From Bdellovibrionales bacterium (GTDB taxonomy: Bacteria > Bdellovibrionota > Bdellovibrionia > Bdellovibrionales > UBA1609), in assembly GCA_020850475.1 (NCBI GenBank), contig JADZEO010000088.1, positions 1-32,971 on the forward strand: a DNA stretch of 32,971 nt. The letters are read 5' to 3'. Shown here in pieces: positions 17,326 to 32,971 of this stretch. A program made the position numbers and the translations under genes. Position 1 is the first letter of the stretch. Each line of letters begins with the position of its first letter. Below the pieces are notes generated by a model. That model was not told where the DNA came from. It saw nothing but the letters and a program-made list of their open reading frames with translations, and made no database searches.

Positions 17326-20256
17326 ATGCGCCCACTTCAACTTTGCGTCTCCATCTTGTTGGTGTTTTTCCTCGGACTCGAGGCCCAAGCGGCATCGGTT
17401 GATCCTGCGATCGATTGGGACGTCATTCGCACCCCGCACTTTAAAATCATCTACGACAAGAAGTTGAAAAACCTTGCCCGACTCTACGCTTGGCAAGCCG
17501 AACGTGCCCACTCTTTGCTTAAACCAATTTTCAAGAAGGCGCCCGATCTCACCCATGTGCTGATCTCTGATACCAGTGATTTTGCCAACGGCTTTGCGAG
17601 CTTTCTGCCGCTCCCCTTGATTACCGTTTTTCCGGTGCTCCCCAGTGCGATTGATTCCGTCTCCCACTACGACAACTGGGCCGCTGAACTCATGATCCAC
17701 GAGTACACCCACATTCTCACCTTTGAACCGACGGCGGGATTTTATACACCCTTGCGCTACATTTTTGGTTCTCTGATTCATCCCACCGGACTGCTCCCGT
17801 CCTGGTGGCAAGAAGGTCTCGCGGTCGAAATGGAAACCCGTTTTACTCTCTTCGGCCGCTTGCGCTCTCCGAGTTACGGGGCCACTCTCCGCAATCTTGT
17901 ACTGGGTGAAAAGCTCCGCGCCGAGACTCTGGACCGCATCAACGAGGGCGACATTCCCACTTGGCCGTTCGGACAGCGGCCCTATTTGTTTGGTTCGCTG
18001 ATCTGGAACAAACTGCTGAGCGAATCGGAGCAAGGGGCCGATCTGGCGCCCAACCTGCTGGAGCGGTATTCCCACCGTTTTCCCTTTTTGCTCAATGAAC
18101 CGCTCAAGGACAACATTGGCAAAACCTACCAAACCGTACTTTCCGAACTCTATGGTCAGGTCGAAGATCGCGCAACCGAACAGCTCAAAACCATTAATCA
18201 TGCAAAAGTAAAAACGGAGACGCGGCTCTCTCACCCCGGCACGGGTCAACACAGTCCAATGATCAGTCCCAACGGGCGAATGCTTGCCTATCTCGCTTAC
18301 ATTCCCCGACAGAGTGGCGAAATCCGCTTGGTGGAGAGACCCGAGGGAAGCAACGCGAGTTTTTCCACTTTGCCTTACCAAGTCGTGAAGAAAATGGTAG
18401 GCACCACGCGCATCAGTTGGCTCCCCGATTCGACAGGCTTTGTCTACGACCAAATGCGCACCTATAAGCGCTACTACCGATACCGGGATCTTTATCTTTA
18501 CAACCTCGCCAACAAAACCACGGTGCGGCTCACCCAAGGAGCGCGCGCCAGCGAACCATCCGTCAGTCCGGATGGTAACAAAGTGGCCTTTGTGCAGACC
18601 ACTCCGGGATCGACTCGTTTGGCCATCTACGACATCGAAAAAGGCGAAATTTCCACACTGCTGGAACCCCCCAAGCCGCAGATGCGCATTTCTTCGCCTG
18701 AGTTTGTCACTGCCAATGAAATTATTTTTGCCGCCCGCAATTTGCGCGGACAAGAGGGGCTCTTTCGCCTGCGCCTCGACAATCCCAAGCCGGTTGCGAT
18801 GCTCAATGAGTTTCGCCCGGCCCGCCAGCCGCGAATGACCCCGGTGGGGCTGCTCTTCGTCTCGGATCGCAGCGGAGTTTCGAATCTCTACATTGCTAAC
18901 AAGTCATTGACCGGGGCCCGTGCCCTCACCAACACGAAAACCCAGATCGTCAATGCCGAGGCCGACCGCCAATCCCGCGAGTATCTCGTGGCCCAATCTT
19001 CTCCCGACGGGACGGTCTTGTTTTTTGGCAAAGATGTCACCACCGCCAATCCCCCCACTGTTGAACCCTTTGTCGAAAATCGTTGGCAAAAAATCCCCGA
19101 AGGCCCCCAACTTTCTGAAGTCAAAATGAAAGAGGAAGACTTCTCCTCGTGGCCTTACCTCTACCCCCGCTATTGGATTCCGTTTTTGTATCCCGTCGAG
19201 GGCGGAGTGCTCGTCCAGGGCACCACCACGGCCGGCGATCCGCTTGGAAAACACAGCTACGCTCTCGATCTGTCGTATGACACCGTCACCGAGAAACCCA
19301 GCTATGGTGTGAACTATCTCAACGGGACCACTTCCATCGACTGGAGCTTGTTCTACACCGAAACCCAAGACTACTACGCTGGGTTTGACACCACCCTCAC
19401 GAATCGCGCCGCCGGGACGAGTGCGGGCTTTTACCTGCCTAAGCTGAGCGACCGCTGGCGCGGCAGCCTCGGCTACGTGGCCATTGAAACTGAGAATGTG
19501 AGCTCCCAAGTCAAGCGCCAAGGGCCCAGTGCTTCATTTTCTTATTCGACCTTTGTCAGCGGTGAGGGCGAGAGTGAAGAGGACGAAGAGAGTGCGGAAG
19601 AAGATCAGGTGGCCGACTACAATACCCAGATCGCCATCGGTCACACTCAATATCAAGAGGGACCCGAGCTGGTGGATTACGGGCGCACCTCGCTCACCTG
19701 GAATCAAGTTATCACCAAGTGGTTGCCGGCCCGGCACAGCTTGGTCACTCAACTGCGGGCGGCTTTTTCTCCGCAAATGAATCTGAGCCAAGTGATTGGC
19801 TTGGGCGACAAAACCGTGGGCGGCAACTACATTGCCAGCCTCGTCACCAGCTCCTTTTTGATGCGCGGTTACCCCTCCACCTCATTCGTCGGCCGCCGAA
19901 TCGTAAACGCCAATCTGGAGTATCGTTTTCCTTTGACGGATGTCTTCCGCGGCAAGGATTTGGTGCCGATCTTTCTTAAGGACATCAGGGCCACCATCTT
20001 TGCCGACGGTGTGGCGGTCGACGGCGGAGCCTTTGATCCCGAGCTTGGCGGTTATCGCCGAGTGGAATTAGACCGGCAGTTCTACGCGGCCGGACTCGAG
20101 CTCAAGCTTCGAACGACCATGGCTTATCAATTCCCGGTCACCTACATTCTTGGCGCCTACTACGGTTTTGACCAGCAGATGCAAGGGGGATTTCATCCCT
20201 TTATTGGCGTTGGTATTGGCGGAATTTCTGACATAGAGAAGGGAGGACGGCTTTGA
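17326..20256 (+). CDS. Metallopeptidase / TolB-propeller / Omp85-type barrel fusion protein
   Basis: The 976-residue protein has a signal peptide (LQLCVSILLVFFLGLEAQA). Residues about 30-250 resemble a peptidase MA-type gluzincin: HEYTH at 125-129 and WWQEGLAVE with Glu163 give a full set of zinc ligands and the catalytic Glu126. Residues about 290-600 hold TolB/PD40 propeller blades, such as HSPMISPNGRMLAYLAY, PSVSPDGNKVAFVQ and RISWLPDSTGFVY. Residues about 640-976 look like an outer-membrane barrel; the segment SSFLMRGYPSTSFVGRRIVN followed by ANLEYRFPL matches the C-terminal part of Omp85/surface-antigen barrels. A very acidic loop lies near residues 745-765. The stop overlaps the next gene start (TTGA). 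The last residues are not the usual Phe-ending beta-signal. The protein could expose or process substrates at the outer membrane. Confidence 0.85.
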   Translation: MRPLQLCVSILLVFFLGLEAQAASVDPAIDWDVIRTPHFKIIYDKKLKNLARLYAWQAERAHSLLKPIFKKAPDLTHVLISDTSDFANGFASFLPLPLITVFPVLPSAIDSVSHYDNWAAELMIHEYTHILTFEPTAGFYTPLRYIFGSLIHPTGLLPSWWQEGLAVEMETRFTLFGRLRSPSYGATLRNLVLGEKLRAETLDRINEGDIPTWPFGQRPYLFGSLIWNKLLSESEQGADLAPNLLERYSHRFPFLLNEPLKDNIGKTYQTVLSELYGQVEDRATEQLKTINHAKVKTETRLSHPGTGQHSPMISPNGRMLAYLAYIPRQSGEIRLVERPEGSNASFSTLPYQVVKKMVGTTRISWLPDSTGFVYDQMRTYKRYYRYRDLYLYNLANKTTVRLTQGARASEPSVSPDGNKVAFVQTTPGSTRLAIYDIEKGEISTLLEPPKPQMRISSPEFVTANEIIFAARNLRGQEGLFRLRLDNPKPVAMLNEFRPARQPRMTPVGLLFVSDRSGVSNLYIANKSLTGARALTNTKTQIVNAEADRQSREYLVAQSSPDGTVLFFGKDVTTANPPTVEPFVENRWQKIPEGPQLSEVKMKEEDFSSWPYLYPRYWIPFLYPVEGGVLVQGTTTAGDPLGKHSYALDLSYDTVTEKPSYGVNYLNGTTSIDWSLFYTETQDYYAGFDTTLTNRAAGTSAGFYLPKLSDRWRGSLGYVAIETENVSSQVKRQGPSASFSYSTFVSGEGESEEDEESAEEDQVADYNTQIAIGHTQYQEGPELVDYGRTSLTWNQVITKWLPARHSLVTQLRAAFSPQMNLSQVIGLGDKTVGGNYIASLVTSSFLMRGYPSTSFVGRRIVNANLEYRFPLTDVFRGKDLVPIFLKDIRATIFADGVAVDGGAFDPELGGYRRVELDRQFYAAGLELKLRTTMAYQFPVTYILGAYYGFDQQMQGGFHPFIGVGIGGISDIEKGGRL

Positions 20257-20819
20257 AACTCAAGCTCCTACTCGCAACCCTCTTGGGTGGGCTCACGCTA
20301 ACAGCCTCGGCCTTTTCCATCGATTCAAATCTCTTTTATCTCTCTGATGCGCTCGATGTGACCTCGGACACCACGGCCGTAAAAATGTTTATGGATTTTT
20401 CGGTCAATCTCGATTTGTCCAAGAAGGGTGATTTCACGATTGGCTGGGCCTATTCCATTGTCACCATTTCTGATGATGACAACGGAACCTCAACAACCTT
20501 TGGCCTCAATGAAATGGGTCCGCGATTTGGCTATTACCTCGACAAGGAAAAGTTGTGGGGCTTATTTCTAACTTACAATCTCCAAGCCCGTGCCGATTAC
20601 AAGAGTGGGGCCACGGACGTCGAGTGGCGCGGTTCCAGTTACAAATTCGAAATCGGCTATCGACCGGAATTGACTGAAAGCCTGCACGCCGGCATGCACC
20701 TCATTTACTACACGGCCTCGTTTTCAGAACAGCTGACCGGGTCGACCACTTTTGAGCTGGTGAGCAACTCCCGGGCCATCATTTACCCGGCCTTCACCAT
20801 TAGTTACCGATTTGAATAG
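20253..20819 (+). CDS. Small outer-membrane beta-barrel protein
   Basis: The 188-residue protein starts at TTG 20253 within the upstream stop (TTGA), with GGGAGG about eight bases before it. The signal peptide (KLLLATLLGGLTLTASA) is followed by about eight strands of alternating character, for example FTIGWAYSIVTI, GPRFGYYLD, LWGLFLTYNLQ, YKFEIGYRPEL and HLIYYTASF, ending in AFTISYRFE. Size and strand number fit an OmpA/OmpX-like eight-stranded barrel, but no family motif is visible. Translational coupling to the peptidase-barrel fusion suggests the two work together. Downstream, 20820-20921 contains nothing definite. Confidence 0.75.
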   Translation: MKLKLLLATLLGGLTLTASAFSIDSNLFYLSDALDVTSDTTAVKMFMDFSVNLDLSKKGDFTIGWAYSIVTISDDDNGTSTTFGLNEMGPRFGYYLDKEKLWGLFLTYNLQARADYKSGATDVEWRGSSYKFEIGYRPELTESLHAGMHLIYYTASFSEQLTGSTTFELVSNSRAIIYPAFTISYRFE

Positions 20820-20921
20820 GATGATCCTTCAATAATCTCGCAAGCTCTGCAGCTTCCGATCCACCGCAATTGGCCGGGTAAGCCCGAAGTTAAAAGTCGA
20901 GTGTATCAAACTGAGAATTAC

Positions 20922-20950
20922 TTAAGGTTCGGGGCAGATCAAGATATAAT
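20922..20950 (+). promoter_or_regulatory. Promoter of beta-helix lipoprotein gene
   Basis: A perfect -10 box TATAAT (20945-20950) has the weak -35 candidate TTAAGG (20922-20927) 17 bases upstream. Transcription would start near 20957, leaving a short leader with the strong ribosome site AGGAGG just before the ATG at 20974. Confidence 0.55.
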
Positions 20951-20973
20951 AGAAAGACTTTTAGGAGGCATGG

Positions 20974-22827
20974 ATGCGCCGCTCTCTCGCTCTCGCCGCT
21001 GCGACGAGTTTGACTCTCGCGGGAGTCTTAGGGCTCTTTCAAAACTGCGCCAAGGGCTTTCGCTCACAATCGGCTTCCTCCCAAAACCAACTCGGCGGTC
21101 CGGGTTGTGATCCACTCGATCCTTCTAACTGCGGTGCGGAGGAACCAGGCGGAGGGACCAATACTCCTCCCCCCACATGTCCACCTCCCGTTTTGGGATC
21201 GACTGGCAATAGCGGTTCTGCCAATGCTGTCCAAGCGGGTACTATCACCACTCCTCATCCAACCTTGCAAAACCTGACGGTTGAATGGCCGTTTTCGGGC
21301 GACCTCAACAACAACTCTCAAGTCTTGGTTCGCTATCATAAGCAAGGCGACGCCAACTGGTACTGTGGTATGCCCCTGCGCTTGATTCCGAGTGGCAACT
21401 TAGAGGGATTTTCTTGGGCCACGCGCCACTCCGGGAGCATCTTTGACCTCCAACCAGCAACGGCCTACGAACTCGAATTAACACTTAACGATCCCGACGG
21501 AGGCTCAGTCCGTAGAACAGTCGTCGTTAACACCCGCGCGGTGCCTGCGCCGATGGCTGGAGCAGTCATTAAGCTGGCCACTCCTTCCACTCTCAATTCG
21601 GTCCTCTCAGCGGCGCAACCGGGTGATGTTGTCGAGTTGGGAGGCGGGTCTTACAGTGGATTTCAAATCAACAAAAGCGGACAAGCGGGGAAGCCTCTGG
21701 TCATTCGCGGGACTCCCAACGCCGTAATTACTGGCGAAGTGGGCGCGTTCTCGGCAAATCACTTGATCTTCGAGGACTTAACAATTAACGGGCGCCTCCG
21801 ACTCAATGGATCGAGCAACATCGCCGTTACTGGCTGCCATATCAGGGCCGCCACGGCCCAAGGTGGTGATGGGATTGTCTCCTACACTCGATCCGAAGAT
21901 TTTTATATTGCCGACAATTGGGTGGAAGGAACGACTCGCTGGGCGGAATCCTCGTTGGGCGTCAATGGCGACAACCTCGGAGAAGGAATTCTTGTCACCG
22001 GCCCCGGTCATGTGATCACTCACAACCAGGTCAGCGGGTTTCGTGACGGCATTTCATTTATGGAGGACAGCGAGGCCGAAGATCAATTCAGCCTCGACGT
22101 GCTCAATAACGATATCTCCCAAAATGCCGACGACGGTGTTGAAGCTGACTTTTGCCAACACAACTGCCGCATCATGAATAATCGCTTAACCAATAATTTT
22201 ATTGCTCTCTCCTCCCAACCAAGTTTGGGGGGGCCCACTTACTTTATTCGCAACTCAATCTACAACGCTGCCCATGTGGCCTTTAAACTTTACCGCGGCA
22301 GTATTGGCGATCTACTGCTACACAACACCATCGTCAAAAACGGTGATGGCCTTGGAATCTACGCTGGCCGGTCGGTGTCGCGCGCCATGATACTTAACAA
22401 CATCTTTATCGGCGGACCCGGAGGTGACTTTGGTGGTTACAGCAGCGGCACTGGCAAAGTCATCGCCTTTGCTGACCTCGTTGTGGCGAACTCCACCATT
22501 AATTACCAGGCCTATGGGTCCACCTCAGGCAGCTTGAGTGGGACGATTGGCTCGACGAGCTTTTCCAATCTGGCGAGTTTACGCTCGACCACTCAAGAAA
22601 AAAACGCGATACAAGTGGATCTGGGGAGTTTCGCTGCCACTGTTTCCTACCCTGCCACCCCCATGACGCCCTATGGAGCCGTCGATTTGCGTCTAAACCC
22701 GGCTTCCCCAGCCGTGGATGCTGCCTACCCCATTTCCAATGTCAATGATCGCCATCACGGAGCCGGGCCCGACATCGGCGCCTTCGAAGTTGGACAGCCC
22801 GCACCACTTTTTGGTCCCCGTCCCTGA
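20974..22827 (+). CDS. Beta-helix (pectate/chondroitin lyase-like) lipoprotein
   Basis: The 617-residue protein starts at the second ATG (20974); the ATG at 20970 is too close to the AGGAGG site. The leader ends in GLFQNC with Cys25, a non-canonical lipobox of a kind I associate with Bdellovibrio-type lipoproteins. A Pro/Gly/Cys-rich linker follows, then a fibronectin-III-like domain (about 85-190, LTVEWPFSGDL to TAYELELTLNDPDG). From about 200 to 600 it is a right-handed parallel beta-helix with repeated short strands (VIRGTPNAVITGEV, LIFEDLTINGRLRL, NIAVTGCHIRAA, VITHNQVSGF, LDVLNNDISQNADDGVE), like polysaccharide lyase family 6 and related surface proteins. The C-terminal NPASPAVDAA and GPDIGAFE segment is typical of such proteins. 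Lyase activity cannot be confirmed. Confidence 0.85.
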   Translation: MRRSLALAAATSLTLAGVLGLFQNCAKGFRSQSASSQNQLGGPGCDPLDPSNCGAEEPGGGTNTPPPTCPPPVLGSTGNSGSANAVQAGTITTPHPTLQNLTVEWPFSGDLNNNSQVLVRYHKQGDANWYCGMPLRLIPSGNLEGFSWATRHSGSIFDLQPATAYELELTLNDPDGGSVRRTVVVNTRAVPAPMAGAVIKLATPSTLNSVLSAAQPGDVVELGGGSYSGFQINKSGQAGKPLVIRGTPNAVITGEVGAFSANHLIFEDLTINGRLRLNGSSNIAVTGCHIRAATAQGGDGIVSYTRSEDFYIADNWVEGTTRWAESSLGVNGDNLGEGILVTGPGHVITHNQVSGFRDGISFMEDSEAEDQFSLDVLNNDISQNADDGVEADFCQHNCRIMNNRLTNNFIALSSQPSLGGPTYFIRNSIYNAAHVAFKLYRGSIGDLLLHNTIVKNGDGLGIYAGRSVSRAMILNNIFIGGPGGDFGGYSSGTGKVIAFADLVVANSTINYQAYGSTSGSLSGTIGSTSFSNLASLRSTTQEKNAIQVDLGSFAATVSYPATPMTPYGAVDLRLNPASPAVDAAYPISNVNDRHHGAGPDIGAFEVGQPAPLFGPRP

Positions 22828-22885: not shown

Positions 22886-22918
22886 GCCTCACTCAACACC
22901 CCGTTCGTGAGGTCAGCA

Positions 22919-23824
22919 ATGCCTTGGACATCGAGTATCCCTCTCCTGCTTGTGTTGGTCTTAACTCCCGTCGCCTTCGGAGCTCGCTCTAAAGACTCGG
23001 GCGCCGTGGTCGGCACGGGCACGGCCCCCATCACCATTGACCTCAGTTCGCCCAAAGGGGGATGGACGGTCGACCGCATGGTCTCGGTGAAAGGGCGAGT
23101 GAGTGATGCCACCGTGAACCCCGTGACGATCAGTATAAACGGTGATCGCTATCTCATTCGAACCGTCAACGGCGAGTTCAGCCGAAAATTTCCCGTCACC
23201 TCGGGGAAGAATGTGATTTCCGTTCAGGCTGCTAATAAAGCGGGAACCTTTAATTTCGCGAAAACTTTTTTTGCCAAGGTCGAACCGGTTCCCTTGGTGA
23301 CGGTACTCACCAGTGACACCGACAATGTCTACACTGACCTCCACATCTACGAACCCAGCGCTGACCTGACCGATCCGGTGAAGCAAAGTGAAAACAAAAC
23401 CGAACACGTTTTTTGGGCCCAAACCCAGTCACAAACGGGCGGAAATTTTTACCTCAATGAACAAGCGGGCAGTTACGATCAGCCCGGGTACGGTCCTTAT
23501 CTTTACACTCATCGTTCTCCGCCGCTGGGAATTTACCGCATCGACGCCAACTACTGGCCGAGTGGTGATAAAGCCCATGTGGTCGCCACTCTCAACGTTG
23601 TGCTTTTTGGCGGGACTTCAAAAGAAGTTCGCAAGACCGTGCGCAATCCACTGGTGATGCCGGGTGAAACCGTCACCATGGCTTTTGTTCGAATCGACAA
23701 GAATCAAGTCGGCTACATTTTTGCTCCGACGATGGATCCCAAGCCTCGAGATGAAAGTGTTTGGCCTAAGTGGGTTATTAATTACAACCCCCGACAAAAA
23801 TCCTCAGGTGGCGAGGAATATTAA
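22919..23824 (+). CDS. yfaP: YfaP-like DUF2135 periplasmic protein
   Basis: The 301-residue protein starts at the ATG at 22919 with GAGGT five bases upstream, in preference to a GTG at 22907. It has a signal peptide (MPWTSSIPLLLVLVLTPVAFGA). The N-terminal half is an Ig-like domain (ITIDLSSPKGGWTV, VSVKGRVSDATVNPVTISING, FPVTSGKNVISVQAANKAG). The C-terminal half is DUF2135, with LTSDTDNVYTDLHIYEP, then GYGPYLYTHRSPPLGIYRIDANYW. This family is known as a companion of YfaS-type alpha-2-macroglobulins in the yfa genes of Escherichia coli and the mag genes of Pseudomonas. Its biochemical role is not established. It is the first gene of a five-gene unit whose members are spaced 2 bases apart or overlap. 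Confidence 0.88.
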   Translation: MPWTSSIPLLLVLVLTPVAFGARSKDSGAVVGTGTAPITIDLSSPKGGWTVDRMVSVKGRVSDATVNPVTISINGDRYLIRTVNGEFSRKFPVTSGKNVISVQAANKAGTFNFAKTFFAKVEPVPLVTVLTSDTDNVYTDLHIYEPSADLTDPVKQSENKTEHVFWAQTQSQTGGNFYLNEQAGSYDQPGYGPYLYTHRSPPLGIYRIDANYWPSGDKAHVVATLNVVLFGGTSKEVRKTVRNPLVMPGETVTMAFVRIDKNQVGYIFAPTMDPKPRDESVWPKWVINYNPRQKSSGGEEY

Positions 23825-23826
23825 CC

Positions 23827-24447
23827 ATGACCCGATATTGGCAGTGGCTCGCCGTGAGCGTTTTGACTTGCTCGGCTTCGGCTCGCCCCAGTGAAACCCG
23901 CCTTTACCAGCAGGAGCGCATCGCCCGCGTGGCTTTGGAGCAAGCCCGCCGGACCACGGGCGAATGGGATCCGGCTCAGCGAGATTGCGCTGGGCTGATT
24001 CGGTGTGCCTACCGTCGGGGACTGGGACTTCCCACCACGCTTTGGCGTAACCAACACAACCAGTGGGTCGACTATGTCGGCGCCGGTGAACTGGTGAGCC
24101 ACAATTTTGATTTTATCACCCGTAGCCCCGAGCCAGATCAGATTGAGTCGGGCGACGTGCTGGTTTTTTATAATCCCCACAAAAAGCCCTTTGAGGCCTG
24201 GCATCTGATGTTGCTGATAAAATCCCCCGGCTCGGCCTCCCATCAAACTCTGGTCGTCTACCACAACGGCGAAACCGGTCGCCGTGCGGCGGTTCGCAAG
24301 GTGCGGTGGGAAAATTTGTTAGAGGAGCCGTCTTCGTGGCAACCCCGATCTTCGAATCCCCTCTTCCAAGGGGTTTTTCGCTGGCAGGGGTGGTCGCGCC
24401 TATTAACTAAGAGTATCGACATCACCGAAAACCGTAACAGGGAATAA
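23827..24447 (+). CDS. yfaT: YfaT-like DUF1175 protein, NlpC/P60-like fold
   Basis: The 206-residue protein has a signal peptide of about 19 residues (WLAVSVLTCSASA). It matches DUF1175 with RDCAGLIRCAYRRGL (Cys54), SGDVLVFYNP, AWHLMLL (His126) and VVYHNGE (His146). Cys-His-His in this order and with this strand context is the catalytic layout of NlpC/P60 papain-like peptidases, which cut peptidoglycan stem peptides. Enzymatic activity for DUF1175 is inferred from the motif and has not been shown, as far as I recall. It starts two bases after yfaP stops and ends two bases before yfaA starts. Confidence 0.85.
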   Translation: MTRYWQWLAVSVLTCSASARPSETRLYQQERIARVALEQARRTTGEWDPAQRDCAGLIRCAYRRGLGLPTTLWRNQHNQWVDYVGAGELVSHNFDFITRSPEPDQIESGDVLVFYNPHKKPFEAWHLMLLIKSPGSASHQTLVVYHNGETGRRAAVRKVRWENLLEEPSSWQPRSSNPLFQGVFRWQGWSRLLTKSIDITENRNRE

Positions 24448-24449
24448 TC

Positions 24450-25850
24450 ATGAAATATTTTTTCCAAATCATCTTTGTCAGCGCCGTCCTCATGGCCACT
24501 TCCCGTGGAGCTGTGGCGGAAGTTCTTCCGGAGCCCGACGAGGCCCTCGCGCCTAAGATCACCTTTCAGGTTCGCGATGCTGTTCAATTGCACCAGTTCT
24601 TGCGACAAAATACCGAGGCTAAACGCTTTGTGGGTTCGAATCTTTTCCGTGGGTTGTTTTATCGTTTGAATCCGGTGTTTGGGATGCTCGGCAGTGAGTA
24701 TGCGGCCTCTTGGCAGGGCACGCTCCTTGATTTTGCCTATGAAAAGACGATGGCGGGTCACCCACTGACACTGGCTTATTATCCGCAGCGCCGCCTGAAC
24801 TCGCCTTTTGGGTCCGCGATCGGCGGACTCGGGTCAGTCGAACAAAAGCTCGTCGCTACACTCACCAAGTCGCTGGGAGCTACGGATCATCAAATTCGCC
24901 CAGCAGAGAAGGGTGGCGCCTTGACCACCGTGCGGAGTGTGAAAGTGCAAAATCAGCTTTTTGCTCAAGGGCTGAATAACGGTTGCTTGGGCCTGAGTCG
25001 CGATCCCTATGTGACGGCCCACCTCATGCGGTCCTGTGCAAGGCCTCAGGCGGATGCGACGGTGGAAGCGGATCTGCGCTTGTTGTTTCCCGCCTTGTCA
25101 GCGGTTTATCGACGATTTTTTTCGGAACAGAGCTTAATGAAATTGAACTTTGCCTGGGACCCCAAGAGTTCGTCCTGGAAACCACGCGATGTGCAGTTGC
25201 CTCTCAACCAAGACCACCAGTTCAAGACGGGCGCCATTCCCAGTGGCTTCTTCGCCGCCGTCCCTTCGTCCACGGCTCTGCTGATTGCCGCACAGGTCCC
25301 CGACCCAAAGGGCTTTGGTCCCGACCAGTTCAAATCCTATCTTGGTGAGTCTGCCACCATTCGGCGCCAACGCGATCCGGTCACCGTGGGTCTCATTGCT
25401 TTTTGGCTGGAGCATAAACTCGAAACGGCAATCCTCATCGGCAAAGAAGCATCGACTGAAGAAATGGAAGGCTTTCGTGAACTGTACGGCGAGTCCGGTC
25501 TCTACAGCATTCACTTTGCACGGGTGTGCAAACAATTTGTCGGAGTTGCCCCCAACGCCAGCGCCCTTGAAGAACTCAACAAGGCCTGCGCCGGAAGCGT
25601 CCCTAATATGTTACACCTTGCTCAAGCTGGCGTGCAGAAGCTGCACGGCCAAAATCCCTCGGTTGCTCTCCTCGTAAATTTGGGAAAGCTTTTGGATGAA
25701 ACTTTTAAGTCGGGGCTCGCCTCGATCGGTGAAGGATCGGAAGGTGCCCCTGAGGTCAAAGAGGCGCAATCGATCTTGAACCAACTCCCGTATTACCTTT
25801 TCGCTGGCAGCATCGAAGATAACACCCTGGTCATGAAAGAGGTTCTTTAA
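24450..25850 (+). CDS. yfaA: YfaA-like DUF2138 periplasmic protein
   Basis: The 466-residue protein has a signal peptide (KYFFQIIFVSAVLMATSRGAVA) and no further membrane segment. I assign it to DUF2138 from position between DUF1175 and YfaS-type genes and from overall features: LTLAYYPQRRLNSPFGSAIGG, FFAAVPSSTALLIAAQVP and ETAILIGKEAS. Three or four cysteines occur in the middle (NNGCLG, MRSCARP) and late (RVCKQF, NKACAG), consistent with disulfides. The E. coli protein is somewhat longer, as I recall. The function is unknown. The stop shares one base with the start of the alpha-2-macroglobulin gene (TAATG), showing tight coupling. Confidence 0.75.
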   Translation: MKYFFQIIFVSAVLMATSRGAVAEVLPEPDEALAPKITFQVRDAVQLHQFLRQNTEAKRFVGSNLFRGLFYRLNPVFGMLGSEYAASWQGTLLDFAYEKTMAGHPLTLAYYPQRRLNSPFGSAIGGLGSVEQKLVATLTKSLGATDHQIRPAEKGGALTTVRSVKVQNQLFAQGLNNGCLGLSRDPYVTAHLMRSCARPQADATVEADLRLLFPALSAVYRRFFSEQSLMKLNFAWDPKSSSWKPRDVQLPLNQDHQFKTGAIPSGFFAAVPSSTALLIAAQVPDPKGFGPDQFKSYLGESATIRRQRDPVTVGLIAFWLEHKLETAILIGKEASTEEMEGFRELYGESGLYSIHFARVCKQFVGVAPNASALEELNKACAGSVPNMLHLAQAGVQKLHGQNPSVALLVNLGKLLDETFKSGLASIGEGSEGAPEVKEAQSILNQLPYYLFAGSIEDNTLVMKEVL

Positions 25851-28800
25851 TGGCACGCCTGAGCTTACGACTTTGTTTTTTACTGATCGGAACCTTCTCT
25901 GCGAACCTCGCATGGAGCAAAAATCTTTACATGACGATCCGCCGGGATTTTGGGCCTCAAGAAAATCCTCAAGTGGAGGTCAACTATGTGAGTCCTGCGC
26001 CCGTGAGCTTTCGCTTGCTTAAGCCGAAGGACATGGCCCAGTTTATTTCCAGTCAGATCGATTTGCGACGGGCCTGGAAGCAACCCAAAACGGAACTCAA
26101 TTCGGCCCGATTTCTTCTCCAAGGATTTAACGATTTAAAACTCGACACCGGGTGGATTCGCGCCGGTCTCAATCAGGACCTGAAACTGGCAATGAAACCC
26201 CAGTTCGGTGGCGCGAGCTACGGAAGTACGCCAAGTCCCTTAGCTCTCGGACCTAAGGAGTTCATCGCCGCCCCCGAAGGTTTTGAAGTGCTCAAAGAAT
26301 TTTCCTCAGTCCCCGAGGAACAAGACAACAAAAAGCCCTTTGATGTTCCCGGTTTTGACTGGTGGAACATGAATAGTGAGGGCGGACTCAAAACCCGCAT
26401 CGTGACTCTCCCTCAACTCGATCCGGGATTTTATGTCCTGCAGGTTTTGCAGTTGGGTCTCGAAGGTCAAGTGGTTCTGGTGATTAACGACATTGTGGCT
26501 CGCCTAGAACAAACCGCCGATGCCGCCGTGGTGACCGCTACCAACCGCAATGGTGAGCCCCTCAGCGGAGCCAAAGTCAGTCTGCGCAACATTCAAGGCG
26601 AGTGGGTCGCCAAAGAAACCACCGACAAAAACGGTGTGGCCCACTTTAAGCGCCTCAATAGCCCCCAGCTCATCGCCACCGTGGAAAAAAGCGGAACCGC
26701 CATTATTGACACGGATTTTTACGCCACCACCGCCGTGAGCCCCGATCTGTATCTTTACACGGACCGACCCATGTTTAAGTCGGGTGAAACCGTTCACTAC
26801 CGAGGAATTCTCCGCGAAACTGCTCGGGGCGTGAGCGCACTCACAGCCGCCTCGACTGCCAAGGTGAGAGTCGTCGATGTCGACGACGGTATGGTGGTAA
26901 GTGAAACGCCCGTGAAAGTGGGCGAGTTCGGCACTTTCCATGGCGAAGTGGCGATGCCAAGCGACCAAGAGGCCGGAGTTTACCGCATCGAAGCCGCGGT
27001 GGACGACAAGTCACATATCGGCGAGTTCCGGGTTAAGAATTATGTAAAGCCCATTTTTTTCCTAACCATTCAGTCGGATCAGGAAACCCTGAAGCCTGGC
27101 ACGCAATTGCGGGCGACGATCAAGGTCGAGCGCTTTGCCGGCGGTGTGCCCACCGACGTGGTTTACCGCGCGCAGTTGTTTCGCTCCAAAGCTGATTCCC
27201 CTCAATGGGTGGACGATGCTGGCATGGGCGAGACCGGTTCCTTGGTGACTTACTTTTGGGACCAAACGCCCAATCAGTACAATCCCTTGACGTTGTTGCA
27301 CAGTCAGGACGAAGTGAAGTTAAATCGTAACGGCACCGGTACAATCAATTTGACCGTCCCCACCGACTCCACCTACCAAGCGAATTTTGACTATAAATAT
27401 CTACTTAAAATCACCGCTCAAGATGCCGACGGCAATTCGGCCGACGCCGCCAAATCCTTTTTGGACATGAAGAGTGAACTCATGGCTCAAGCTCGGATGT
27501 CGGCCTCGTTTGCTGGCGCGGGATTTCCAGCCACTCTCAAAGTGCGCTCAGTGTACCCTTCGGGCAAGGCTTACCCCCAAGCCAGGGGTCAAATCCAGTG
27601 GAGCGTCACCGCCTACAATGGAACTGAAACCAAAATCGAAGACAAAACTTTTAAAACCGACGATCAAGGTCGCTTCGAGGTCGCCGTCCCCACCAACCAA
27701 CCCGGAGCCGTTCGTGCTCGGGTTTTTATTTGGGACTCCAAGGACGTTGCGAATCGAGCCGAAGCGGAATTGTTGGTCCTGGGCTCTGACCTTCGCCAAG
27801 GAGTGGTTCGGGTTCAAGAAATGTCGCTGCTCAGCCGCCGCGATTATTTTTTCCCAGGCGAAACCGCCAAAGGTTTGGTCATGCTCCCCGAGGGCTGGGG
27901 CCACAACCGTCAAAATAAGGGATTGTTGTACATAACCGTCGCCGGCGAAAAGATTTTTAGTCAACGCGTTCAACCCGTGGAGGGCTTGGCAACTTGGATT
28001 GAAGAAAAAATTCTCCCTGAATTTGGTACCGGGGTTTACCTCATCGTGGCGTACGCCGACCCTACGCACGGCTGGGTGGAACGCAAGTTTTCTTACCGTA
28101 TTCCGCAAAAAGACAAATACCTCCAGGTGAAGCTGGCCTTTGCCCAAGGCAACGTGATGCCGGGCCAAGAACAAACCGTCAACTTGACGGTTCTTGATCA
28201 TGAGGGGAAGCCTCTCAAATCCGAGGTCTCGCTGTCGGTGGTGGATAAGGCCGTGCTGACTTTGCAACCGGAGTTTCGTCCGCCGCTCATGGAGTTCTTT
28301 TATCCCCAGGCGAAACTGAATTTATCCAGTTTTTTTAGTAGCCAGTTTCAATCCTATGGATACGGCGAACCCCTCGCTAAATTGTTTCGACCCAATTATT
28401 GGTTTTCGGCGGCTAAAGCGGAGCCGGAAAAGCTCAAAGAAGAAGACACGGCTCACTGGGTCGCTGACTTGTTAACCAATGACAAGGGAATGGCCAGCTC
28501 CACCTTTAGAATGCCTTCGAATCAAACCATTTGGGAAGTGACGGCGGTCGCGGTCGATAAGAATGGTCGCTTTGGCGAGGGCAAAAGTGAGTTCAAGTCC
28601 CAAATGCCGATTTCGCTCATTCTGGCCATGCCCGCCTTCTTGCGAACCGGTGATATCATGGAGCCACGCCTCTCAATTGCCAACACGCAAGAGACCAAAC
28701 AAACCTATGACGTCAAGTACAGTCTAGAGACACCACCCGAACTCAAAGTGGAAACTCCCATCGCGACCAGCGGCTCGGTTGCCCCCGGCAAAAATCTTGA

Positions 28801-30751
28801 TTTTGTGGGACAGGCGACACTTGTCAGTCATGTCGGCGAACCAAAAAACTTAAGCTTAACCAGCCATCTCGAGTTTGCGCAAAAGAGCTTGGCTTTTTCT
28901 CATTCGCTGCGCGCGATGGAATCGCGCATTCCCATTCAAGAAACTCCCAAGGAAACCGATGGCGCTTGGCGCTTGAGTCAGAGTGCTGAGGCACCCATTC
29001 GCTCGGTTCGCTACACGGTAACCCAGGGCTTGATGGGCACCATGATGCCTGCCATGCGTTGGCTGATCGCCTATCCGCATGGGTGTGTGGAACAAACACT
29101 CAGTCGAACCATTCCAAGTTTGGTGGTTCGAGACCTATTTGAGTCCACGAGCCCGGGAGCGACCTCGGCTGCAACCTTAGCTCCCTCGGCCGGAGTCTTG
29201 GCTAAGGCTTGGTTTTGGGTAAAAAATCTGCTGAGCCGATTCTGGAATTGGCTTAAGAGTTTGTTCGTCGGTGAGACCGTTCAAGTTAAGCTCACCCGCA
29301 ACTTTGGAAAACTCGTAGGCGATGCGAAAGAATTTGCCTCGGCGGGACTCAAAAAGATTGCTGGCTTTCAAAATCAAAATGGCTCTTTTGCTTGGTTTGC
29401 CGGAGAAGGCGAAGGCGATCTCGACATGACTCTCGCCGTGACCATGATGCTTCTCAGTCACGAACGCCCCTACTTCAGCAGCGAAGGCATTGAGCTCGAC
29501 CGCACCTGGAGTTGGCTCAGCAACCAGTACCTCGACAACAACTCCGAGCGCGGCGTGGTCATGACTTTTATTGAGTCCCGACTGAGCAAAGCGGGAACCA
29601 TTCAAACCGGGCGCAGTGACGCCATCGCCCGCATCAATCAAATTGGCCCCACGCTTAAAGATCAGGGACTCGGCCTGCAAGGCTTGACGTTGTTGGCAAT
29701 CGACAGCTTTGGTTTGAAGGATGCTGCCGAAATTAAAACGACTCAAGACTCCTTACTGGCGAGCCTCAAATCCGGTTTGCAAGATTTCTTTAATAAAGGC
29801 GGCCAGATCGATTTGTGGCGACCTCTCCGGGCCCAGTGGCAAGGCTACCCGGGCCTCTTTGTGTCGGATGTCGCCCTGAGTGCGCGAGCCTTGCAGGCTT
29901 TCGGAGCACTCGACAACAGCCTGAGAGCTTCGTTGGTGACTCTGCTGCTACGCGAATTCAATGGCTCGCACTTTGGCTCAACCTTTGAGACCTCGATGAC
30001 TTTGCTCCACAGCGCGTGGCTCCTCAAAGAAGACTTGAGTAGCAAAGAATCGACTCGCCCACCAGAACTTGAAATTGACGGTAAAACGGTTGCGAACGAC
30101 AAAATTCAAGCGCTGTCGAACTTTGGTGGTTGGGAACTGGAAGTCGACGGTTCAGTTCTGAGCCCGGGTGAACATGTCATTAAGGCCGAGCGCGGCGACT
30201 ACCTTTCCGCCGACCTTCAAGCCACGCGTTGGGTGCCGATCGAAAAAGCTTCCCTTCAAGCTCACGGCTGGGCACTCAAGAAGTCCATTTTCAAAATTGA
30301 AAATGGGGGATTACAAAAGCGTCCCTTTGATCCCGCCCTAGAAGGGGTCCGCGTTGGAGATCTACTCTATGTTGAACTCGAGTTCAGTCATCAGCGCGAC
30401 CAAGAGGGCTGGCGGCACTCCCTGTCCCCCAGCCATTTTATCGTTCAAGACGACATTCCCTCCGGTTTTGTCGTGCTCGAGAGCGACAAAGATTATTCGG
30501 CTTTCGCTTGGTACGATCCCGATAAAACCAGGAGTCGCCATGTCCGCCGCCTCGAACCCGACCGCGCGGCTTGGTACTTTCGTTATGAGAGTAATTGGAT
30601 GAAACAAAATCGTCGCGTGGGTTATTTTATGCGAGCCACTTACGGCGGGACTTATTCGAGCGGTGTGGCTCGGGTAGAAGATTTTTATGATGAAGCAAGT
30701 TTTGCACAAACTGGCGGTTATCGCGTGCGCGTGGCCCCTCATCAGCGTTAA
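25850..30751 (+). CDS. yfaS: Bacterial alpha-2-macroglobulin, YfaS/MagD type, thioester-containing
   Basis: The 1633-residue protein has an ordinary signal peptide (cleaved near AWS, residue 22-23) and no lipobox, so it should be a soluble or peripherally bound periplasmic protein. Landmarks in order are a YfaS-type N-domain, the MG2 signature YLYTDRPMFKSGETVHYRG (about 300-318), further MG domains, a central A2M segment (HWVADLLTNDKGMASSTFRMPSN, about 866-890), the thioester motif GCVEQ with Cys1079 and Gln1082, an alpha/alpha-toroid thioester domain (to about 1400) and C-terminal receptor-like domains (DIPSGFVVLESD). Macroglobulins trap proteases: cleavage of a bait segment exposes the thioester, which binds the attacker. 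Residues 1118-1142 form an unusual Trp-rich amphipathic segment inside the thioester domain. Neighbours make a full yfa/mag operon. Confidence 0.95.
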   Translation: MARLSLRLCFLLIGTFSANLAWSKNLYMTIRRDFGPQENPQVEVNYVSPAPVSFRLLKPKDMAQFISSQIDLRRAWKQPKTELNSARFLLQGFNDLKLDTGWIRAGLNQDLKLAMKPQFGGASYGSTPSPLALGPKEFIAAPEGFEVLKEFSSVPEEQDNKKPFDVPGFDWWNMNSEGGLKTRIVTLPQLDPGFYVLQVLQLGLEGQVVLVINDIVARLEQTADAAVVTATNRNGEPLSGAKVSLRNIQGEWVAKETTDKNGVAHFKRLNSPQLIATVEKSGTAIIDTDFYATTAVSPDLYLYTDRPMFKSGETVHYRGILRETARGVSALTAASTAKVRVVDVDDGMVVSETPVKVGEFGTFHGEVAMPSDQEAGVYRIEAAVDDKSHIGEFRVKNYVKPIFFLTIQSDQETLKPGTQLRATIKVERFAGGVPTDVVYRAQLFRSKADSPQWVDDAGMGETGSLVTYFWDQTPNQYNPLTLLHSQDEVKLNRNGTGTINLTVPTDSTYQANFDYKYLLKITAQDADGNSADAAKSFLDMKSELMAQARMSASFAGAGFPATLKVRSVYPSGKAYPQARGQIQWSVTAYNGTETKIEDKTFKTDDQGRFEVAVPTNQPGAVRARVFIWDSKDVANRAEAELLVLGSDLRQGVVRVQEMSLLSRRDYFFPGETAKGLVMLPEGWGHNRQNKGLLYITVAGEKIFSQRVQPVEGLATWIEEKILPEFGTGVYLIVAYADPTHGWVERKFSYRIPQKDKYLQVKLAFAQGNVMPGQEQTVNLTVLDHEGKPLKSEVSLSVVDKAVLTLQPEFRPPLMEFFYPQAKLNLSSFFSSQFQSYGYGEPLAKLFRPNYWFSAAKAEPEKLKEEDTAHWVADLLTNDKGMASSTFRMPSNQTIWEVTAVAVDKNGRFGEGKSEFKSQMPISLILAMPAFLRTGDIMEPRLSIANTQETKQTYDVKYSLETPPELKVETPIATSGSVAPGKNLDFVGQATLVSHVGEPKNLSLTSHLEFAQKSLAFSHSLRAMESRIPIQETPKETDGAWRLSQSAEAPIRSVRYTVTQGLMGTMMPAMRWLIAYPHGCVEQTLSRTIPSLVVRDLFESTSPGATSAATLAPSAGVLAKAWFWVKNLLSRFWNWLKSLFVGETVQVKLTRNFGKLVGDAKEFASAGLKKIAGFQNQNGSFAWFAGEGEGDLDMTLAVTMMLLSHERPYFSSEGIELDRTWSWLSNQYLDNNSERGVVMTFIESRLSKAGTIQTGRSDAIARINQIGPTLKDQGLGLQGLTLLAIDSFGLKDAAEIKTTQDSLLASLKSGLQDFFNKGGQIDLWRPLRAQWQGYPGLFVSDVALSARALQAFGALDNSLRASLVTLLLREFNGSHFGSTFETSMTLLHSAWLLKEDLSSKESTRPPELEIDGKTVANDKIQALSNFGGWELEVDGSVLSPGEHVIKAERGDYLSADLQATRWVPIEKASLQAHGWALKKSIFKIENGGLQKRPFDPALEGVRVGDLLYVELEFSHQRDQEGWRHSLSPSHFIVQDDIPSGFVVLESDKDYSAFAWYDPDKTRSRHVRRLEPDRAAWYFRYESNWMKQNRRVGYFMRATYGGTYSSGVARVEDFYDEASFAQTGGYRVRVAPHQR

Positions 30752-32971
30752 GGCCCACGGCCTCGACCTGAAGTGGGATGCGTCTTTTACGCGCGATCAA
30801 CAAGTGCTGGGGCGCCAAGCCCTGGCGAGAATTGCTTCGCGTTGGCAGTCGCTTTCGTTTGAAACACTACCCGCAACTCCTGTTAAAATCGAAGTTCTGG
30901 GGAGGCCTCAGGCCTCTCGGCATGGCGCTCGTTCCCAGCCGGGAGTCATACAACTCAATGCCTTGCTCAGCCCCAAAGATTTTTCCTCTGTTATCGCGCA
31001 CGAATTCGCCCACCAAGTTTGGCTCAACCATTGCGGCCTGACCTCGCCGCAAGACGAAATCATCCACGAAGCCTTGGCGCTTTGGATCTCCGAAGACCTC
31101 CATCGCCTGGTGCTCAACGATCAGCAGACACCTTATTTGAGTCAGGCCCGTGAGGCCCTTTTTCAACAAAAAGGACAGCCCCTGACTTCGGACCCGAAAC
31201 CGGTGCAGGTAGCACTCTCGCGCCTTCTGGCGACCCCCGATACCCAAAAAACCTGGCAGCAATTCTTTCAAAAGCTCGTCCCTCAGTGTCGCTCGACCGA
31301 GAATTTTCGCGAGCAATTTTGGAATCTGGTGGCTCAAACGGACTATGCACCGCGGGTCGGTCGCCTGCACTTTTTGCTTCAAGATGGACTTTCCCATGAA
31401 GTCTTGTCGAGCCACGGTCCAGTGCAAAACTCGTATCCCGTAGGGTCACTCCTAAAACCTCTCGCGATTCAGCTGTTACCCTCCTTGCAAACGCCTTTAA
31501 ATTCCCGTCCCGATCCCACCTGGTATTGCCCGTCGATGAACGTGCGGTCGCGGACTTGGAATTGGCAAGAGGCTCTCACCAAGTCTTGCAATGGATTTTT
31601 CCTCGATCACCTGATCGGTGCCTCGGAGTGGCAGAATTGGCGACACTTTTGGACTCACTGGGGCCGCCCTCAGGTCGGTCTCGCGATGACCGAAGTCATC
31701 GGTCTCAACGCTCACTTCAAAATGAGTCTCGAGCAAGTCTTGCAAATTTACCAGTGGTTGGATCTGACTTCGCCTACGATCATTGATGCTCTTCGCGAAA
31801 CTGCTCACAGCGGCACCATGGCCAGCGGCGCTGATGCCGAGTGGTTTGAGCGCAATCAAATTGCGCTCAAGACCGGCTCGGTCAGGTCCACTAGCGGTGA
31901 ACCCATTTACTCTTGGATTGTGGCACTTGGTCCGCGCACGGGCGAAGGGGCCAGTGCCTTTCGCGCCGTAATTTTTAGTGAGGGGCGGGCCACCAGCGAA
32001 TTGTTGCCCGAGCTGCGGGCGCTGCTGGTTAAAAGGTGGTGGCAAAAATCCAAGCCGGCTCAGGTGCAAGTCTTAGGATTAGTGCCCTTGAACAAACTCA
32101 AGTTTTCCTGCCCTGCCGGTAGCCCCGCTCTGTATCGGCCGATGCCAGGCCAATGGAAACTCTCGGCCGCTGGTGCTGCACCCATGAATTTACCAGTCAA
32201 CCATGAATTGCAGTGTCTCGGCGGTCCTGTGCGGCTGCACTTTCCGGGACGTAAAGGCGAAGACCTCTCTCGGCTCTACTACGGCCGCCTAAGAGTTGAG
32301 TCCGAAGATCAACTTCTAGCAGAAAGTAAGGTGGACTTAGTTTCTGCTGACTCACTTCCCGCCGATGGCCGGCAACTTCGCGCTCGGCGCGGTTCGGCCG
32401 TGACCTTGATCACCAGTGAGGGACACTATGCCGAGCAAGTCCTGGCCTCGGAATTTCCGCGCGGACACCAAGAAACTTTGAAAGCTCTTGCCCTCGGCGT
32501 CCTCCACAACCACTCCCACAGTCCCCACGGCGCACGCCCGGTCTGCGACACCACCCATTGCCAAGTTTTTGCCTTTCAAGAGGGAGTGCCAGCGCATTTG
32601 CGCGCGCGCATCCGCTCGGCCGTCGAGGTGGCCTTGCACCAGCGCGGCGATTTTAAATTTGCCGAGCCTTGGTTTTATTTTTCGCTCGGAGGTTCCAAAC
32701 CCTGGTCAAAAAAAGTGTCTAATGACCTCATCAAACAACAACTCGCGCTGACCAGCTCGGCTGCCGAACTCATCCGCGAGCCCAGTGGGCAAATTCAAGT
32801 TCTTTCTCAAAGTGGCGAGCGACGCCTCCTCGACTGCGAAAGCTTGCGCAATCAATTGCGCCTACTCAGTTGCCCCGACAACATCCATCGCGCCGGTTCC
32901 GAGTGGACTTTCTCAGGAAGAGGAGAAGGCCACGGTCGCGGTCTCAACCTCATCGACGCCGACCTCAAATC
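30687..32971 (+). CDS. yfaQ: YfaQ-type protein (DUF2300/SpoIID-like) with peptidase and transpeptidase motifs, 3' end cut
   Basis: This frame has no stop before the right edge and gives 761 visible residues. It starts at ATG 30687 (or 30690), inside the end of yfaS with a 65-base overlap. The signal peptide is HKLAVIACAWPLISVKA. Residues 105-109 are HEFAH with Glu128 in HEALALW, a gluzincin zinc pattern with thermolysin-like spacing. Residues about 240-420 carry YPVGSLLKP (Ser254, Lys257), EALTKSCN (Ser300, Asn302) and LKTGS (Lys395), the three motifs of penicillin-binding transpeptidases in correct order. From about 560 on, VLASEFPRGHQETLKALALGV, CDTTHCQVF and finally GRGEGHGRGLNL match SpoIID-type domains, as in DUF2300. 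The protein should be periplasmic and act on peptidoglycan. Activity of each part is inferred. Confidence 0.85.
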   Translation, partial: MMKQVLHKLAVIACAWPLISVKAHGLDLKWDASFTRDQQVLGRQALARIASRWQSLSFETLPATPVKIEVLGRPQASRHGARSQPGVIQLNALLSPKDFSSVIAHEFAHQVWLNHCGLTSPQDEIIHEALALWISEDLHRLVLNDQQTPYLSQAREALFQQKGQPLTSDPKPVQVALSRLLATPDTQKTWQQFFQKLVPQCRSTENFREQFWNLVAQTDYAPRVGRLHFLLQDGLSHEVLSSHGPVQNSYPVGSLLKPLAIQLLPSLQTPLNSRPDPTWYCPSMNVRSRTWNWQEALTKSCNGFFLDHLIGASEWQNWRHFWTHWGRPQVGLAMTEVIGLNAHFKMSLEQVLQIYQWLDLTSPTIIDALRETAHSGTMASGADAEWFERNQIALKTGSVRSTSGEPIYSWIVALGPRTGEGASAFRAVIFSEGRATSELLPELRALLVKRWWQKSKPAQVQVLGLVPLNKLKFSCPAGSPALYRPMPGQWKLSAAGAAPMNLPVNHELQCLGGPVRLHFPGRKGEDLSRLYYGRLRVESEDQLLAESKVDLVSADSLPADGRQLRARRGSAVTLITSEGHYAEQVLASEFPRGHQETLKALALGVLHNHSHSPHGARPVCDTTHCQVFAFQEGVPAHLRARIRSAVEVALHQRGDFKFAEPWFYFSLGGSKPWSKKVSNDLIKQQLALTSSAAELIREPSGQIQVLSQSGERRLLDCESLRNQLRLLSCPDNIHRAGSEWTFSGRGEGHGRGLNLIDADLK

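Follow-up and report, generated by a model that had tools for sequence, protein, structure and literature searches.

The analysed stretch of DNA, hereafter termed the window, has a length of 32,971 nucleotides and constitutes the whole of a contig (C88) from a genome of 3.9 Mb that was assembled into 175 contigs. On its forward strand, it carries a conserved operon of five genes encoding a YfaP-like protein, a DUF1175 protein, a conserved protein of 466 residues (ORF466), an alpha-2-macroglobulin (A2M) and, as last member, the YfaQ-like protein on which this study is centered (Table 1). The same gene order is found in 25 of the 35 homologous loci that were fetched, with the operon being cut off by the end of the locus or contig in the others. 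Upstream of the operon on the same strand (17326-22827), the window contains genes coding for a TolB-like propeller protein, a small outer-membrane beta-barrel and a NosD-like beta-helix, which show no conservation beside the operon in other loci. The YfaQ-like protein is encoded by a single frame (30687-32969, +) of 761 amino acids, which is free of stop codons up to the end of the contig. The last 127 bases of the window exactly match contig C84, which supplies 22 additional codons (...SLAGAKFDSLLNEKVNENSSHY-stop), and the full protein thus most likely consists of 783 residues, as an exact overlap of this kind is typical for an assembly break and makes the joining of both contigs likely, albeit unproven. 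The start codon of the gene is located inside the A2M gene, resulting in an overlap of 65 bases, and a similar overlap is found in the Bdellovibrionota relatives L014-L017. A lipobox-like LGGC sequence is present at the N-terminus of one relative (L002).

Table 1. Genes of the A2M operon and domains and motifs of the YfaQ-like protein (positions in the window).
Feature	Position	Strand	Basis or remark
YfaP-like protein (Glucodextran_B, weak DUF2135)	22907..23824	+	Pfam, operon comparison
DUF1175 protein (YfaT/MagC), NlpC/P60-like	23827..24447	+	Pfam; C54, H126, H146 conserved
ORF466, 466 aa, conserved in operon	24450..25850	+	no Pfam match
Alpha-2-macroglobulin (YfaS/MagD position)	25850..30751	+	Pfam MG2, A2M, A2M_BRD, bMG10
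A2M thioester motif CVEQ, within YPHGCVEQ	29084..29095	+	sequence
YfaQ-like gene	30687..32971	+	761 codons within window; 22 further codons on contig C84
Predicted signal peptide, Sec type, residues 1-23	30687..30755	+	sequence read directly (by eye)
Gluzincin-type metallopeptidase domain, residues 25-222	30759..31352	+	AlphaFold2 pLDDT 87; M61/M1/M9 fold matches
HEFAH zinc-site motif, residues 105-109	30999..31013	+	H105, E106, H109 invariant
E128, presumed third zinc ligand	31068..31070	+	invariant
Compact penicillin-binding (transpeptidase) domain, residues 223-455	31353..32051	+	fold matches, hhalign
SxxK motif SLLK, residues 254-257	31446..31457	+	S254, K257 invariant
SxN motif SCN, residues 300-302	31584..31592	+	invariant
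KTG motif, residues 395-397	31869..31877	+	K, G invariant; some homologues KSG
Beta-rich linker domain, residues 456-560	32052..32366	+	AlphaFold2 model
SpoIID-type lytic transglycosylase domain, residues 562-end	32370..32971	+	profile search vs PDB, Pfam
E589, aligned to conserved SpoIID glutamate (VVASEM in 4rwr)	32451..32453	+	near-invariant

Single-sequence searches with the window protein did not retrieve any match in a collection of genome contigs or in the PDB, and an alignment was thus required. This alignment comprises 31 homologues from Bdellovibrionota and Myxococcota, which share 24-36% identity with the window protein. Within the window's phylum, 9 of 340 genomes were found to contain a homologue in a whole-genome search. 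The 35 loci described above, which are mainly of Bdellovibrionota and Myxococcota origin, stem from a scan of 84,980 species that was driven by the alignment. Loci with the full set of motifs all belong to these two phyla, or else to metagenome-assembled genomes and records that are labelled otherwise. Two loci labelled as Comamonas sp. (L019) and Streptomyces griseus (L024) contain the operon in myxobacterial- or Bdellovibrio-like sequence, and their labels are probably wrong. Viral contigs and plasmids contained no relatives of the protein, and a library of defence systems yielded no match.

The original prediction had described, within one frame, an HEFAH sequence with a glutamate 19 residues downstream, followed by SLLK, SCN and KTG sequences and by SpoIID-like motifs, all of which are present. 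Since the scan demanded solely the stretch A[LM]xxSCNG[FY]F, the remaining motifs provide independent evidence. Among the positions that are invariant in all 31 homologues are H105, E106, H109 and E128 of the metallopeptidase motif, S254, K257, P258, A296, L297, S300, C301, N302, G303 and F305 of the serine domain and, as further positions, G376, T377, K395, G397, C281, C475 and C510, while E589, C620, D621, T623, C625, Q626, G744, G746, G748, H749 and G752 are near-invariant. The invariance of motif residues in proteins of such low identity to the window protein confirms that their joint occurrence in this frame reflects more than chance. A lack of conservation among close homologues had been named beforehand as one of two observations that could overturn the prediction; the residues are kept and the reading stands. 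The distribution of full-motif loci could point towards a tool for predation, which would act on the peptidoglycan and proteins of prey. We consider such a role highly improbable in light of the small number of genomes of the window's phylum that contain the protein, the presence of operon homologues in the non-predators E. coli, Citrobacter and Deinococcota (latter with a DUF1175-A2M pair) and the signal peptides and the single lipobox, which suggest the cell's own envelope as the place of action.

An AlphaFold2 model of the whole protein, calculated on the alignment, shows a mean pLDDT of 82, and each of the three proposed domains folds as predicted when judged by AlphaFold2, Foldseek and VIA. 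The N-terminal domain displays the hallmarks of a gluzincin, with an HExxH motif and a downstream glutamate (HExxH-x18-E) located in a thermolysin-like fold. In Foldseek searches it matches an M61 aminopeptidase (the best match, E = 3e-3) and M1 enzymes with a probability of 1.00 at E-values that are modest. Its superposition by VIA extends over about 180-193 of its 198 residues with Z-scores of 10 to 13, including collagenase H (Z 13.0, 190 residues, rmsd 3.3) and M1 aminopeptidases (Z about 11). The domain thus shares its motif and catalytic-domain fold with M1, M61 and M9 gluzincins, whereas the similarity in sequence is sub-significant, as the best profile matches in the PDB (E = 0.0077) and in Pfam (M78, E = 0.0032) are both below the cut-off, and the accessory domains of M1 enzymes were not seen in the window protein.

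The subsequent serine domain closely resembles penicillin-binding proteins (PBPs). VIA superimposes it on PBP5 of Enterococcus faecium (PBP5fm, 8f3y) with a Z-score of 20.6 and an rmsd of 2.8 over 218 residues, and the top matches of a Foldseek search against the PDB are PBP transpeptidase domains and serine beta-lactamases (E = 1.6e-5, probability 1.00). On the level of sequence, hhalign relates the domain to E. coli PbpC (E = 3.4e-6), with SVLKP, SLN and KTG of the latter aligned with GSLLKP, SCN and KTG, and a match to the PBP 7rd0 (E = 0.0028) places SCN and KTG in register. These scores are discriminating, since the cross-comparison of non-corresponding domains gave probabilities below 1%. 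SxxK, SxN and K[TS]G motifs are thus found in order within a transpeptidase-type fold, at median spacings of 45 residues between the first and second and 96 between the second and third motif in homologues. From the fold match and the motif register we infer that Ser254, Ser300 and Lys395 converge in one site, and S254 may bind penicillin covalently, which membership in the superfamily predicts as a trait of the class only. In zinc-binding class B PBPs of the SpoVD type, the central residue of the SxN motif is a zinc ligand (PMC9334274, PMC9974482), which acts together with a histidine and two Cys/Asp residues where it is a cysteine (PMC9334274). The invariant C301 and C281 of the window protein recall these enzymes, with no conserved histidine being seen between them, no evident candidates for the other ligands and a disulfide being equally possible.

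Whether the serine domain works as transpeptidase, carboxypeptidase or endopeptidase cannot be separated by sequence alone. There is some chance, though clearly a minor one, that it acts as DD-carboxypeptidase/endopeptidase or as a beta-lactamase-like enzyme, so that the wall would be trimmed or degraded and not crosslinked. This would agree with the compact size of the domain (233 residues, with 95-96 residues between SxN and KTG), with the appearance of PBP6 and of TEM, KPC and PER enzymes among the Foldseek matches and with the SpoIID domain and the NlpC/P60-like partner alongside, but class B transpeptidases provide the best matches in structure, and in sequence the domain is most closely in register with PbpC and a class B PBP. 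Such an activity would be compatible with most of the mechanism that we favor below.

Following the linker, the C-terminal domain contains the motifs of SpoIID lytic transglycosylases, in the window protein as ASEFP (including E589), CDTTHCQVF (620-628) and GRGEGHGRG (744-752). A sequence profile of this part matches 4rwr in an hmmsearch against the PDB (E = 1.1e-5), and Foldseek identifies the SpoIID structures 5i1t and 4rwr (E = 1.6e-4, probability 1.00). The Pfam SpoIID model detects 21 of the 31 members at E<=1, the window protein itself remaining below the cut-off. The profile match is thus accompanied by the conserved glutamate. With SpoIID the domain shares the YxxxVLASE, CDTTHCQVF and GxGxGHG motifs, while it differs by its fusion to two other enzyme-like domains and its origin from Gram-negatives outside the sporulating Firmicutes.

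Of the partner proteins, DUF1175 preserves C54, H126 and H146 each in 30 or 31 of 31 sequences, and its NlpC/P60 catalytic site may thus be intact, whereas one survey has classed DUF1175 as inactive (PMC10318531). The title of a study in FEBS Letters from 2021, cited in the same survey, describes MagC as NlpC/P60-like and as interacting with peptidoglycan. ORF466 (24450-25850) is conserved across two phyla without any match in Pfam or NCBIfam, and its assignment as homologue of DUF2138/YfaA is unsupported (hhalign probability 0.5%).

According to the textbook division, A2Ms with a thioester are associated with PBP1C and those without with the Mag operon. Judged by its motif, the A2M of the window does not obey this division, since it belongs to a Mag-type operon and still contains GCVEQ, where a thioester-less (type II, Mag-type) A2M would have no CxEQ. 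Its sequence is related more closely to YfaS, with a score of 139 bits, than to YfhM with 51 bits. In the homologous loci, YPxGC[LV]EQ is found in each A2M whose sequence extends over this region, and the motif is also kept in A2Ms of Meiothermus and Deinococcus that adjoin DUF1175, whereas YfaS of E. coli and Citrobacter both contain GGVINT at the equivalent position. Among the sampled proteins, the loss of the thioester hence seems confined to the enterobacterial branch, with MagD of P. aeruginosa also lacking it (PMC5764988). In the two enterobacterial operons, the absence of the thioester coincides with degraded YfaQ motifs (SCG, KTW and no GxGxGHG), which, given the few genomes, is an observation and not a statistical result. 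The genome of the window encodes a second A2M (L059 771-10002, contig C58) of 2033 residues with a CIEQ motif, which adjoins a subtilase gene and not a PBP, both forming a possible protease-inhibitor pair.

Judging from the fold class computed for each of the modules, from the conserved catalytic-type residues and from the operon, we think that the YfaQ-like protein is probably a secreted periplasmic enzyme of three modules, which docks on the A2M and edits peptidoglycan; its catalysis we infer throughout. The protein would bind the A2M complex by analogy to the binding of MagD by MagB and edit peptidoglycan at this location. In this process, glycan strands would be cleaved by the SpoIID domain, 4,3-crosslinks would be either formed or trimmed by the serine domain, and the NlpC/P60-like partner would hold on to stem peptides or cleave them. 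For the metallopeptidase, we would expect a protein as substrate, the simplest candidate being the A2M, which it may process given that MagB is required for the cleavage of MagD from 165 to 100 kDa (PMC5764988). The whole complex would thereby constitute a local unit for envelope repair and defence, with the repair or remodelling of peptidoglycan likely being coupled to protease trapping. In a more far-reaching version, which we regard as doubtful, the complex would be a self-contained envelope defence particle. Its fused metallopeptidase would then cleave the bait region or mature the thioester A2M, and the PBP and SpoIID domains together with the NlpC/P60 partner would mend the wall, whereby a single complex would trap the attacking protease as well as repair the wall. 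The thioester-less enterobacterial system would in this case be a decayed remnant.

The closest described protein is E. coli YfaQ, which is encoded in the yfaA-yfaT-yfaS-yfaQ-yfaP operon and was in June 2025 described as bipartite, with a transpeptidase-like domain preceding a SpoIID-like domain (PMC12282094). Its deletion causes wider cells, with a profile connected to deletions of mepS, mepK and nlpI, and the main text of this study does not mention a metallopeptidase (PMC12282094). Both proteins are secreted, adjoin an A2M and DUF1175 and share the transpeptidase-like and SpoIID-like domains in the same order (hhalign E = 1.8e-6 and 3e-4). Conversely, YfaQ contains SCG and KTW in place of SCN and KTG, which argues against transpeptidation in the E. 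coli and Citrobacter proteins, it lacks GxGxGHG, and its A2M partner is devoid of the thioester that is present in the window. An HExxH...E pattern is located at the C-terminus of YfaQ and at the N-terminus of the window protein, without significant sequence similarity between them. In E. coli (L006 2152-3798 (-)) it consists of HEYLH with a glutamate 16 residues further on and is identical in Citrobacter. A domain permutation relating both regions is only a lead, as hhalign yields a probability of 0.5% and the HMM score is matched by shuffled sequences, with 131 and 185 of 1000 reaching it. The 'tandem DUF2300' of Pfam covers residues 84-205 (serine domain) and 412-532 (C-terminus) of E. coli YfaQ, which are mutually dissimilar, and the model may thus mix two unrelated regions. 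The original prediction is hence borne out in part. Its three-domain reading has held, whereas the pairing of transpeptidase and SpoIID domains, assumed to be undescribed, was already known from YfaQ. As far as we have seen, the new element is the metallopeptidase module and thus the three-domain form, neither of which was found in the searched literature. The assignment to YfaQ finds support in the operon position next to A2M and DUF1175 and in the transpeptidase-SpoIID core, but the DUF2300 label does not, as the Pfam model shows no match to the window protein.

In P. aeruginosa, the equivalent operon partner of an A2M is MagB of the magABCDEF operon, which we compare by its description in a study on MagA, MagB, MagD and MagF (PMC5764988). 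MagB is predicted to contain a transmembrane helix and lacks a signal peptide, whereas the window protein likely has a Sec signal peptide. As MagB was examined as a scaffold and not as an enzyme and was found to bind, anchor and stabilise MagD (PMC5764988), the window protein could similarly be mainly a scaffold, whose enzyme-like domains would attach to peptidoglycan and peptides and thereby hold the A2M in place and stabilise it, with no catalysis involved. The described inactivity of DUF1175 and the degraded serine-domain motifs of E. coli YfaQ would fit this role, but we find it unlikely, since catalytic sites kept as widely as in the 31 Bdellovibrionota and Myxococcota proteins, and in DUF1175 itself, are not expected of a pure scaffold. 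Our preferred reading as peptidoglycan-editing enzyme presupposes, by analogy, that the Mag data apply to so distant a homologue. Protection against some T6SS effectors that target peptidoglycan has been described for MagD (PMC12663445), and a link between trap and wall would offer testable reasons for this protection and for the need for MagB in MagD cleavage. Studies in E. coli, and perhaps also in P. aeruginosa, may represent the system poorly if the copies in these species have decayed.

Finally, the window protein resembles PBP1C (PbpC) and its thioester A2M YfhM in the association of a penicillin-binding domain with a thioester A2M and in the GSxLKP, SxN and KTG motifs that are in register. 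It differs by the absence of the N-terminal glycosyltransferase and the C-terminal BiPBP_C domain that define PBP1C, neither of which has a match in the protein, and by the metallopeptidase and SpoIID modules that are fused instead. As originally stated, the operon contains no pbpC, and BiPBP_C was not found genome-wide. The proposal that both macroglobulin systems could be unified is strengthened by the intact thioester motif of the partner A2M. Since this family combines a Mag-type operon with this motif and with a penicillin-binding domain that is apparently intact, the PBP1C and Mag contexts look like one theme, in which a protease trap is tied to a wall-editing enzyme.
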